The position numbers were made by a program, and so were the translations under genes. The notes beneath the pieces are model-generated. The model had not been told where the DNA came from. It saw only the letters and a program-made list of their open reading frames with translations, and ran no database searches. A DNA stretch of 31,499 nucleotides from a virus. Positions 111 to 31,467 of this stretch are shown in pieces (position 1 is the first letter of the stretch; each line of letters begins with the position of its first letter). Where the stretch lies: positions 1 through 31,499 of the IMG/VR virus record IMGVR_UViG_3300042471_000049. One strand, written 5' to 3'.

Positions 111-112
111 GT

Positions 113-120
113 TATCTTCG
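113..120 (+). promoter_or_regulatory. degenerate -7 box upstream of the leader RNA
   Basis: The sequence TATCTTCG sits where the other copy at the 3' end has TAACTTTG, a perfect match to the Bacteroidetes TAnnTTTG box. It differs from the consensus by one base (position 119). No clear -33 TTTG lies about 20 bases upstream in either copy, so promoter strength is uncertain. Confidence 0.4.
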
Positions 121-125
121 TACAA

Positions 126-209
126 AGGATGTAGGATATCCTAACTAAAACTTATTGGCTCAAAGCTGAAACCCTAATCCTACTGGGGTGGATGCCGAGA
201 GCCTTTTTT
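126..209 (+). ncRNA. candidate structured leader RNA or small RNA
   Basis: The stretch between the promoter box and the first start codon holds several complementary segments. GTAGGAT (131-137) can pair with ATCCTAC (177-183). ACCC (171-174) can pair with GGGT (186-189), which would place ATCCTAC in the hairpin loop and make the first pairing a pseudoknot. ATCC (177-180) can alternatively pair with GGAT (190-193). TAGGATATCCTA (132-143) is also a perfect palindrome. The segment ends in a terminator-like helix (see 157-209). I do not recognise it as a named riboswitch or ribozyme. It could be an attenuator for the replication genes or a free small RNA of about 84 nt. The fold was drawn by eye. 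Confidence 0.45.
157..209 (+). terminator. terminator-like helix just before the DnaD-like gene
   Basis: GGCTC (157-161) pairs with GAGCC (199-203), followed directly by six T (204-209). The ATG at 215 comes five bases later, so termination here would shut off the replication gene. The closing helix is only 5 bp and encloses the other pairings of the leader, so its efficiency may depend on how the leader folds. Confidence 0.45.
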
Positions 210-214
210 ATTTT

Positions 215-865
215 ATGGCTAAAGACCCAGCAGTGTTATTTTACACAAGCGATTTTCTTAGTGGCACTTTTACAATGGATAATGAACAGGTTGGCAAATA
301 CATTAGACTTTTGTGCTTACAACATCAAAAAGGCAAATTAAGTGAAAAGGATATGCTAAGCATATGTAAAGCATATGATAATGAGATTTGGGATAAATTT
401 AAAGTTCAAGATGGTTTATACTACAACGAAAGAATGTTTAATGAAACCATTAGAAGGCAAAAATTTAGTGAAAGTAGAAGAAATAATGCTAAATCACTTA
501 AAAAAGAAAGCACTAGCGAAGCATATGCTGAGCATATGGAAACTGAAACTGAAAATAGAACTATAACTATAAATGAAAATATAAATATAGATTTTGAATG
601 GTTTTGGAATGATTATGATAAAAAGGTAGGGGATAAGCAAAAGCTAAAAAAGAAGTGGAATAAATTAACCGATATAGAAAGGCAAAATGCAATGAATTAT
701 ATTGACCTTTACAAACAATCAGTACCAGACAAGCAATTCCGTAAAAACCCAGAAACCTTTTTAAACAACAAATCTTGGAACGATGAAATCATTAACCGAA
801 GTATTACCCCAATCCATAAACTCTCTTACGCAGAACGAGAGGCTAATGCACTTAGAAGTCTATAA
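215..865 (+). CDS. DnaD-like replication initiation protein (Lin1244/Lin1753-type N-terminus)
   Basis: The N-terminus (DPAVLFYTSDFLSGT, residues 4-18) followed by a helical region ending near residue 60 matches the winged-helix domain that begins many phage replication proteins (Lin1244/Lin1753, DnaD-related). The middle is low-complexity and rich in T, N and E. The C-terminal 80 residues contain an EWFWNDYDKKVGDK...W..L segment typical of phage DnaD-like proteins. In that family such proteins bind origin DNA and help recruit the helicase. An in-frame ATG at 188 exists, but it lies inside the leader hairpin and adds nine residues not seen in the family, so 215 is preferred. It opens the replication block. 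Confidence 0.75.
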   Translation: MAKDPAVLFYTSDFLSGTFTMDNEQVGKYIRLLCLQHQKGKLSEKDMLSICKAYDNEIWDKFKVQDGLYYNERMFNETIRRQKFSESRRNNAKSLKKESTSEAYAEHMETETENRTITINENINIDFEWFWNDYDKKVGDKQKLKKKWNKLTDIERQNAMNYIDLYKQSVPDKQFRKNPETFLNNKSWNDEIINRSITPIHKLSYAEREANALRSL

Positions 866-6835: not shown

Positions 6836-7579
6836 ATGAGTAAGATTGAAAACAAAAGCTACAATGATATGATTTTGGATATAGAGCCAGAATCAAGAAC
6901 AGTTAAAGCGTGTTGGTCAAGAATTGGAAACGTTGATTTAGACAATGATATTATTGTTGCTGAAGCGTTTACCAAGACTATCAAAGAACGTGGACCAAAA
7001 GGCAAAAATATGATTTGGTCTTTAGTAGACCACAAAGCTGATATGGCACACACTTTGGGTAAGCCTAAAGAGTTATACATTGAAGGCGATATGCTTGTTG
7101 CGGTTACTGACTTAATAGAAACTGAATGTGGCGAAGATGCTATCAAGTTATATGAAGCTGGTTTAATCAATCAACATTCAATAGGTTTTAGTACGTTAAA
7201 GTCAGATGTAAACCAAAAGACTGGTGTGCGTACAATTACCGAATTAAAACTATATGAAGGTTCAGCGGTTCTTTGGGGTGCTAATCCAGAAACACCAACA
7301 TTGGGTTTCAAGGGTGAGTTCAAAGAAACTAAAGAAAACTTATCAATGAGATTAGAAAACTTAATCAAGGCATTTAGAGGTGGTACATTCACAGATGACA
7401 CCTTTGCTTTGATGGAGATTCAAATAAAACAAATACAAGCCGAATTATTAAGTTTGGAGATTACTGAAACAATCACTCAATCCGAGCCATCAATTGAGCC
7501 GACACCAGTGGTAGAAGAAAAGAATAACGAGGAAGTATTGAAGGCAATTAAACAATTTAACAATCTATTTAAAAAGTAA
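6836..7579 (+). CDS. prohead protease (HK97 family)
   Basis: The first 150 residues form a U35-type serine protease domain with the expected histidine in WSLVDHKAD (H66) and serine in NQHSIGFS (S115). It matures the capsid by cleaving scaffold and the capsid delta domain. Residues 155-247 are helical and charged, ending in a Pro/Glu-rich linker, so this tail may contribute scaffold function. It lies two bases upstream of the capsid gene and has its own promoter ending just before the start codon. Confidence 0.85.
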   Translation: MSKIENKSYNDMILDIEPESRTVKACWSRIGNVDLDNDIIVAEAFTKTIKERGPKGKNMIWSLVDHKADMAHTLGKPKELYIEGDMLVAVTDLIETECGEDAIKLYEAGLINQHSIGFSTLKSDVNQKTGVRTITELKLYEGSAVLWGANPETPTLGFKGEFKETKENLSMRLENLIKAFRGGTFTDDTFALMEIQIKQIQAELLSLEITETITQSEPSIEPTPVVEEKNNEEVLKAIKQFNNLFKK

Positions 7580-7581
7580 AA

Positions 7582-8673
7582 ATGGAAAATTTAATCAATG
7601 AAATGGCTGAGAACCTTAAAGGTTTTCAAGCTAATGCAGAAGCACAAATTAAAGAAGTGTCTGCACAAGTAACTGTTGTAAAAGACGAGTTACAAAAACA
7701 AATCGATGGTCAATTAGCTGCTCAAAAGAAAGCTGAGAAGAAAGAAGTAAAATTCATCGACCAAGTTATCTTAGAGAAATTAGATGGCAATTTCGATGCA
7801 ATGGAGAAGTCTTTAAAGAACAATGGTAAGTATCGTTTAGATTTAAGCGATGTTAAGACAATGACTTTAAGTGGTAACTTAACTGGTGATGCACAAGCAT
7901 CTTATGCTCCTAATCCAGCTATCCAACCTTCTCAAAGTTTAAACTTTAGAGATTTAATCCCAACTGTAAGAAGCGAAAGCGGTCTTTATGTTTACTATCG
8001 TGAGAATAGCGGTTTGACTAACAATATTGCTGCTCAAACTGAAGGTTCTAACAAAGGTGAGAACAACTACTCTTTGACTGAAGTTAAAGTTGTTAACGAT
8101 TACCTTGCTGGTTTCTCTACTTTCTCTAAGCAAATGTTAAAGTCTTTACCATTTATGACACAGACTTTACCAAGAATGTTACAAAGAGATTTCTTCAAGG
8201 CTGAGAACGCTGCATTTTTCTCTACTGTATCTGGTGCTGCAACAGGTTCAACTACAACTGCTGAAACTAACGATTTGTTACAATTAGTAGATTATATCGC
8301 AAACCAAAAACAAGCAAACTTTGTAGCTTCATTTGCATTAGTATCTGAAACTCAAATGGCTCGTTTATTGAAAGCAACTATCGCTGCTGGTTACTATGCT
8401 GGTGCTGGTAGTGTTATTGTTAACCCTAATGGTGGTATCACAATCTGGGGTGTTCCAGTTGTTGCTGCATCTTGGGTAACTGATGACAAAGTATTAATCT
8501 TTGATAACAGTTACTTAGAAAGAGTTGAAGTTGAAGGTTTAGCTATTGAGTTCTCTTATGAGAATGGCGAAAACTTCCAAAAGAACTTGGTAACTGCTCG
8601 TATTGAGTGTTACGAAGACATCAACTTAATGTTGACTACTTCTGCAATCTTTGCTGATTTAGGTAACGTATAG
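7582..8673 (+). CDS. major capsid protein (HK97 fold)
   Basis: The 363-residue protein starts with about 75 residues of charged coiled coil (a delta/scaffolding domain) followed by an HK97-fold body with SLNFRDLIPTVRSESGLYVYY, the E-loop region, and FKAENAAFF. The scaffold is probably removed by the upstream protease. Codon use shifts visibly from neighbours (many GCT, GGT, AAC, TTC codons), as expected for the most abundant virion protein. It is followed at once by a strong terminator. A cleavage site between residues 90 and 110 is inferred, not visible. Confidence 0.9.
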   Translation: MENLINEMAENLKGFQANAEAQIKEVSAQVTVVKDELQKQIDGQLAAQKKAEKKEVKFIDQVILEKLDGNFDAMEKSLKNNGKYRLDLSDVKTMTLSGNLTGDAQASYAPNPAIQPSQSLNFRDLIPTVRSESGLYVYYRENSGLTNNIAAQTEGSNKGENNYSLTEVKVVNDYLAGFSTFSKQMLKSLPFMTQTLPRMLQRDFFKAENAAFFSTVSGAATGSTTTAETNDLLQLVDYIANQKQANFVASFALVSETQMARLLKATIAAGYYAGAGSVIVNPNGGITIWGVPVVAASWVTDDKVLIFDNSYLERVEVEGLAIEFSYENGENFQKNLVTARIECYEDINLMLTTSAIFADLGNV

Positions 8674-27310: not shown

Positions 27311-27326
27311 TTGTTCGTTCATAGTT

Positions 27327-27354
27327 CCTCACCCCTAAAAAGGTGGGGTTTTTT
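27327..27354 (+). terminator. Rho-independent terminator (end of late block)
   Basis: CCTCACC (27327-27333) pairs with GGTGGGG (27342-27348) over 7 bp with one G-T wobble and an eight-base loop, followed by TTTTTT (27349-27354). Confidence 0.8.
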
Positions 27355-27357
27355 ATA

Positions 27358-27365
27358 TATCTTTG
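27358..27365 (+). promoter_or_regulatory. -7 box TATCTTTG between the two terminators
   Basis: A perfect TAnnTTTG box lies right after the first terminator and 28 bases before the second. No -33 TTTG is visible. If active it would give a transcript of only about 50 nt. Confidence 0.3.
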
Positions 27366-27393
27366 GCTTTCATATTGGAGAACTTAGGTTTAA

Positions 27394-27424
27394 CCCTCGC
27401 TATTTCCATAGTGGGGGTTTTTTT
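27394..27424 (+). terminator. second strong terminator
   Basis: CCCTCGCTAT (27394-27403) pairs with ATAGTGGGGG (27408-27417) over 10 bp (two wobbles) around a TTCC loop, followed by seven T (27418-27424). Two strong terminators in tandem isolate the late genes from the early region. Confidence 0.85.
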
Positions 27425-31365: not shown

Positions 31366-31373
31366 TAACTTTG
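31366..31373 (+). promoter_or_regulatory. -7 box TAACTTTG inside a 12-bp palindrome
   Basis: The box is a perfect TAnnTTTG and begins two bases after the HTH stop codon. It overlaps CTTTGTACAAAG (31369-31380), a perfect palindrome that could be an operator. In the other copy (113-120) both the box and the palindrome are broken by one base. Confidence 0.5.
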
Positions 31374-31378
31374 TACAA

Positions 31379-31462
31379 AGGATGTAGGATATCCTAACTA
31401 AAACTTATTGGCTCAAAGCTGAAACCCTAATCCTACTGGGGTGGATGCCGAGAGCCTTTTTT
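31379..31462 (+). ncRNA. candidate structured leader RNA (second copy)
   Basis: Identical over its whole length to 126-209, including all complementary segments and the terminal T run. It is the same RNA seen at the other end of a circular sequence. Confidence 0.45.
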
Positions 31463-31467
31463 ATTTT

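Follow-up and report, generated by a model that had tools for sequence, protein, structure and literature searches.

A covarying kissing-loop leader RNA with a terminator-like end precedes replication initiator and homing endonuclease genes in phages

Purine-type riboswitches have two neighboring hairpins that are joined by a kissing L2-L3 interaction, and attenuators and riboswitch-like leaders that end in an intrinsic terminator place a structured 5' leader behind a promoter, with a GC stem and a U-run before the first start codon. In phage T4, the gene 32 mRNA has a 5' pseudoknot beside an A/U-rich start region, and leader hairpins of the stand-alone homing endonucleases lower translation (PMC3014915). 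The putL RNA of phage HK022, ~70 nt with two stem-loops, closely follows an early phage promoter and needs no phage protein to act; put antitermination works through the zinc-binding domain of the RNA polymerase β' subunit (PMC9378689).

The window analyzed here, a 31.5-kb phage record in IMG/VR (31499 nt in full), carries a leader between a promoter box and the gene of a replication initiator-like protein. The complementary segments marked by an initial annotation of this DNA, 131-137/177-183 (GUAGGAU/AUCCUAC), 171-174/186-189 and 157-161/199-203 (GGCUC/GAGCC), are all present, as are the six T at 204-209 that stop five bases before the ATG at 215. The pairing of 131-137 with 177-183 had been described as a pseudoknot; a hairpin at 126-130/138-142 (P1) had been overlooked, and the pairing is a loop-loop (kissing) interaction rather than a plain pseudoknot. 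Likewise, the helix 171-174/186-189 is only part of the longer P3. The features are as follows, with pairing and double-sided changes taken from the alignments described below.

112-119, plus strand: -7 promoter box TATCTTCG, read from the sequence (consensus TAHHTTTG)
124, plus strand: predicted transcription start, 2 nt 5' of P1, with G119 placed at -5 as in the Flavobacterium johnsoniae map
126-142, plus strand: predicted hairpin P1, 126-130/138-142, with the 7-nt loop 131-137 GUAGGAU (4 of 5 pairs with double-sided changes; 95.3% of cells paired)
131-137, plus strand: kissing strand 1, partner 177-183 (100% paired over 51 distinct sequences; 5 of 7 pairs with double changes; ten 7-mers)
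143-156, plus strand: single-stranded linker of 13-16 nt, with the conserved AACUUAUU at 149-156
157-161, plus strand: 5' strand of P2, GGCUC, partner 199-203 (93.7% paired; 4 of 5 pairs with double changes)
165-166, plus strand: 5' strand of P2b, GC, partner 194-195 (97.1% paired; both pairs with double changes)
171-189, plus strand: predicted hairpin P3, 171-176/184-189, whose loop 177-183 AUCCUAC is kissing strand 2 (99.3% paired; 5 of 6 pairs with double changes)
199-203, plus strand: 3' strand of P2, GAGCC (helix with covariation)
204-209, plus strand: terminator-like U-run right behind P2 (4-6 U per 6 nt after P2)
215-862, plus strand: first downstream gene, replication initiator-like protein (C-terminal match to phrog_270, weak N-terminal match to DUF1376)
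31366-31467, plus strand: the same promoter box, leader (31377-31462) and spacer to the ATG, a terminal overlap and not a second copy

The last of these features arises from the contig ends, 1-246 and 31254-31499, which overlap over 246 bp at 97% identity (239/246). All seven differences fall within 1-120 and none within 121-246, and the imperfect overlap reflects variants from a population that were joined where the assembly of a single, circularly closed contig ends. The contrast between a fully conserved leader and a changing flank, which had been drawn from "two variants", is therefore real, but the variants are the ends of one contig. The box at the other end (31366-31373) reads TAACTTTG, the exact -7 consensus. 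The promoter map of F. johnsoniae gives TAHHTTTG with G at -5 (PMC6847099).

This architecture can be set against the systems above. A stable stem followed immediately by a U-run upstream of a gene, as in intrinsic-terminator attenuators and riboswitch-like leaders, is found in all 52 aligned leaders, but here the hairpin loop is locked by a kissing loop, neither a conserved antiterminator nor an Rfam match was found, and many unrelated genes follow; these genes (replication initiators, homing endonucleases) suggest no riboswitch ligand. Compared with the purine-type riboswitches, the leader has no closing three-way-junction helix, and its kissing sequences vary freely. The T4 leaders share with it a tertiary fold or hairpins in phage mRNA near an A/U-rich start, for a replication protein or a homing endonuclease, and are functional analogies, not homologues. 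The H-type pseudoknot of gene 32 is recognized by the gene 32 protein itself, whereas here the proteins encoded behind a single leader type are many and unrelated, which makes gene-specific autoregulation unlikely; a leader belonging to the gene whose protein binds it, as with gene 32, was not found. With HK022 put, the leader shares a size of ~70-86 nt and two stem-loops, here P1 and P2/P3, directly behind a phage promoter (in most copies). A kissing loop and a U-run are unreported for put and the hosts differ, and the comparison is one of layout, not of homology.

Alignments of related leaders lend overwhelming covariation support to the predicted structure. Loci of relatives of the downstream protein nearly all bear the leader directly upstream, and an alignment of 22 of these leaders gave five helices in which 98.0% of the cells pair and 18 of 25 pairs have changed on both sides (slid controls, 33-45%); the nested helices were recovered independently by RNAalifold. 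A covariance model (R1), from which the kissing pairs were omitted, recruited 52 leaders (51 distinct), and across the same number of pairs 97.4% of the cells were paired, compared with 32-46% in slid controls, and 335 cells had changed on both sides. Every one of the 52 leaders has a fully Watson-Crick kissing helix, and ten different 7-mers occur in it. The seed alignment (A2) had been selected partly by loop complementarity, and the pattern set required AACUUAUU and ATG; the less biased test is given by the leaders that R1 recruited from terminase-anchored and other loci, all of which have perfect kissing loops, including a new 7-mer, GUACCAG/CUGGUAC, in L281. Kinship among the sequences inflates the cell counts, yet 18 kissing sequences adjoin unrelated genes. 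The initial annotation had proposed looking for compensatory changes in related phages and had counted an absence of covariation against its reading; the changes are there. It had also been unable to name a class, in agreement with the covariance-model search that it suggested: neither the window nor any of ten diverse loci with distant members matched an Rfam 15 family at the gathering cut-off, and at E up to 10 the region 1-300 had a single unrelated sub-threshold match, on the other strand.

At the level of sequence, these comparisons establish a conserved RNA fold, predicted to comprise P1, the AACUUAUU linker, P2/P2b/P3, the 7-bp P1-P3 kissing helix and the U-run. P3 stacks on P2b and P2, and its loop kisses the P1 loop through 7 bp; the sequences are compatible with both intra- and intermolecular pairing, and the helix may form in either way. 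Linker columns A28, A29, U32, U35 and U36 of alignment A4 are constant in 51-52 of 52 sequences. The P2-P3 hairpin has a mean stability of -18.1 kcal/mol, and 4-6 U occupy the 6 nt 3' of P2 in 52/52 leaders, although an A or UA/AC breaks the beginning of the U-run in some members. None of 20,000 dinucleotide shuffles of 111-214 held two hairpins with exactly complementary 7-nt loops. The nested minimum free energy of the segment is unremarkable (z -1.46), because the kissing helix is invisible to nested folding, and was dropped as evidence for structure. A promoter-plus-kissing descriptor found 67 distinct matches in 4.7 Mb, all of which were this leader; 0.93 Mb of shuffled sequence contained no match. 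The leader diverges ~6 times more slowly than the third codon positions of the next gene (0.013 versus 0.079 per site).

The number of IMG/VR phage contigs with the leader is well above one hundred, and most are from small phages. Pattern scans of IMG/VR (AACTTATT, a gap of 40-66 nt and a U-run with ATG) yielded 117 distinct leaders in which the two kissing loops agree; between them they use 18 kissing sequences, and the remaining matches, inspected by eye, contain several more leaders with kissing loops of 6-8 nt and shorter P3 stems. A TAHHTTTG box lies 5' of P1 in 104 of the 117, and in 103 of these 104 (about 90% of leaders) P1 starts within -3 to +2 of the predicted transcription start. 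The terminase of the window shares 35-39% identity with the enzymes of Bacteroides, Phocaeicola and Parabacteroides phages and about 30-33% with those of Flavobacterium phages; judged by promoters and terminase relatives, the carriers appear to be mostly Bacteroidota-type phages. Endonuclease leaders of a further branch (L336, L346, L358, L370, L387 and L415), some on contigs of up to 91 kb, have P1 lengthened by TATTATAGATAG/CTATCTATAATA before GIY-YIG and HNH genes; they lack the TAHHTTTG box at the foot of P1 and possibly use another promoter class.

Among 395 Bacteroidota genomes, the exact pattern gave no match and no true copy of the leader was present; one 36-bit match was rejected for its different context and missing architecture. 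The leader was not found in four cultured phage genomes (Bacteroides, Flavobacterium, Parabacteroides), and divergent leaders, compared by blastn with 50,697 phage records, had no convincing match. Regions of cr115_1 and of Polaribacter Leef_1 were inspected, and their kissing was not convincing. In the crAss-like cr115_1 (L543), a hairpin at 213-287 with TGAGTAGAGTC..CGAAAG, directly 5' of TTTATTTTATG, resembles that of L342, with no evident kissing loop. This may mean that only these lytic-looking phages have the leader, though sparse sampling may also explain its absence elsewhere.

The genes behind the leader are diverse. At least five unrelated N-termini of replication initiators follow it directly, among them DUF1376-like, phrog_6251, Lin1244_N, HTH_36/DnaD_N and DUF6291 types, and elsewhere the next gene encodes a homing endonuclease (HNH with NUMOD4 or AP2, or GIY-YIG), a methyltransferase or a helicase-methylase. 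Whichever gene follows, its start codon usually lies 3-7 nt 3' of the U-run, and the flanking genes differ on both sides while the leader persists. Where an endonuclease or methylase has been inserted 5' of the replication gene, it sits between the leader and that gene (L044, L058, L069, L048 and L065), and endonucleases at other sites bring their own promoter and leader (L081 at 7441, L304 at 4224, L263 at 3801, L266 at 2853, and L326). The earlier reading of a structured leader with a terminator-like U-run in front of the replication gene thus holds for the structure, given the covariation, but not for an exclusive link to replication. In every genome with two copies (G044, L263/L266, G468 and G454/G457), the kissing sequences of the copies differ. 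A GTGAGAT-type leader with its own promoter stands before different HNH endonucleases at different insertion sites (L081 at 7441-7999, the sites just given in L304, L263 and L266, and also L302 and L320); leader and HNH endonuclease together form a leader-endonuclease cassette.

What the leader does can be read in several ways, and to the one that we favor, a cis-acting 5' leader that would damp the downstream gene by transcription attenuation, we give about an even chance. Cis action is favored by the fixed spacing to unrelated genes and by the mobile endonuclease copies; attenuation is favored by these same arguments together with the U-run behind a strong hairpin. The starts of the other genes of this phage are A-rich (A 52%, T 30%), whereas the leader tract has 10 T in 12. 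U occupies -3 in 97 of 117 leaders, where A favors translation in Flavobacterium (PMC6847099). The A-rich starts elsewhere and the disfavored U at -3 suggest that the U-run is maintained for a role other than ribosome binding, most simply intrinsic termination. Against attenuation we count that the U-rich tract before the ATG could be a ribosome (S1) site and that no conserved, mutually exclusive antiterminator was found among the aligned leaders: no conserved alternative structure showed covariation, and a 4-pair stack, 43-46/90-93, was set aside as A/U-rich and without covariation. The competing pairing 177-180/190-193 proposed by the initial annotation does exist in the window, but it is not conserved (66.7% of cells paired; double changes at 1 of 4 pairs).

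Under attenuation, P1 would fold first and its loop would capture the emerging P3 loop; P2 would then close beside the U-run, and many transcripts would end as an ~86-nt RNA. Read-through would yield the mRNA that encodes the replication initiator or, in mobile copies, the homing endonuclease. The kissing helix would already be in place when P2 closes and would tune the ease of P2 formation, and the AACUUAUU linker and the inner loops would be likely sites of tertiary or factor contacts. This much of the model is inference: the termination itself, the sensed signal and the direction in which control works.

The leader could instead be a trans-acting phage small RNA, the ~86-nt promoter-to-terminator unit being the product and the genes behind it mere neighbors reached by read-through. 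The unit is indeed compact and autonomous, with its own promoter and terminator-like end, the same phage has a second promoter-hairpin-U-run unit (27358-27421), and the leader sequence is more conserved than the adjoining gene. We nevertheless consider this unlikely: many unrelated genes start at a near-fixed 3-7 nt from the U-run, homing endonucleases elsewhere have their own leader copies, and the kissing loops, the natural sites for targeting, vary freely provided that their mutual pairing holds. About equally improbable is a leader acting on translation or mRNA stability with no real termination, much like the leaders of T4 gene 32 or of the T4 homing endonucleases; the transcript would be protected by a hairpin at +1, and ribosome access would be set by the kissing fold together with the U-rich tract. 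P1 begins at the predicted first nucleotide, the structure ends right before the start codon, and RNA structures lower translation of the T4 stand-alone homing endonucleases (PMC3014915); however, the strong hairpin and U-run look like a terminator, and the U at -3 is opposite to the favored Flavobacterium context.

The match in size and position to HK022 putL (PMC9378689) raises the question of a put-like antiterminator, a nascent RNA that would bind RNA polymerase and let it read through early-operon terminators including the adjacent U-run. As no sequence or structural homology backs this likeness, neither a kissing loop nor a U-run at the end is reported for putRNA, and copies before single homing endonuclease genes need no processive antitermination, we regard such a role as quite improbable. 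A DNA-level element, either a replication origin or a recombination boundary whose hairpins act as DNA and mark points of module exchange, would account for a leader that stays while the genes on both sides change and that adjoins replication genes. Orientation, the promoter at +1 and the U-run fit RNA instead, HNH copies lie at other sites, and iteron-like repeats are found inside the initiator gene (335-549) rather than in the leader; we give a DNA-level role hardly any credence, and the origin hypothesis was rejected, there being no excess of DnaA boxes. The iteron-like repeats, AAGCATATG in two pairs, recall a lambda-O-type in-gene origin.

Returning to attenuation, the leader looks, from its sequence features, like an undescribed on/off or volume control, and no kissing leader described in Bacteroidota phages was found in the openly accessible literature. 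Replication initiators and DNA-cutting homing endonucleases, both of which must not be over-expressed, are linked here to one shared RNA control module. Tentatively, and with less confidence than in attenuation itself, we propose that these kissing-loop RNAs of phages make up a new and widespread class and would serve as a general control module, travelling with homing endonucleases and swapped initiators; a private kissing code for each copy would prevent cross-pairing, and a shared host factor, for example RNA polymerase or the ribosome, would recognize the AACUUAUU linker. The leader offers a testable handle on gene control after initiation in Bacteroidota phages, and its kissing sequences, which vary freely yet always match, lend themselves well to compensatory-mutation tests.

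Two other regions of the window have related arrangements. At 1518-1580, a 10-bp stem, CCACCTCAAG/CTTGGGGTGG, with T6 lies a few bases before an ATG near 1586, another terminator followed by a start. The region 27313-27421 contains a terminator, a promoter box TATCTTTG (27358), a conserved 28-nt GGCTTTCATATTGGAGAACTTAGGTTTA and a second hairpin with T7; this small-RNA-like unit is also present in L093, L095, L103, L116 and L118, where its terminator hairpin is variable.
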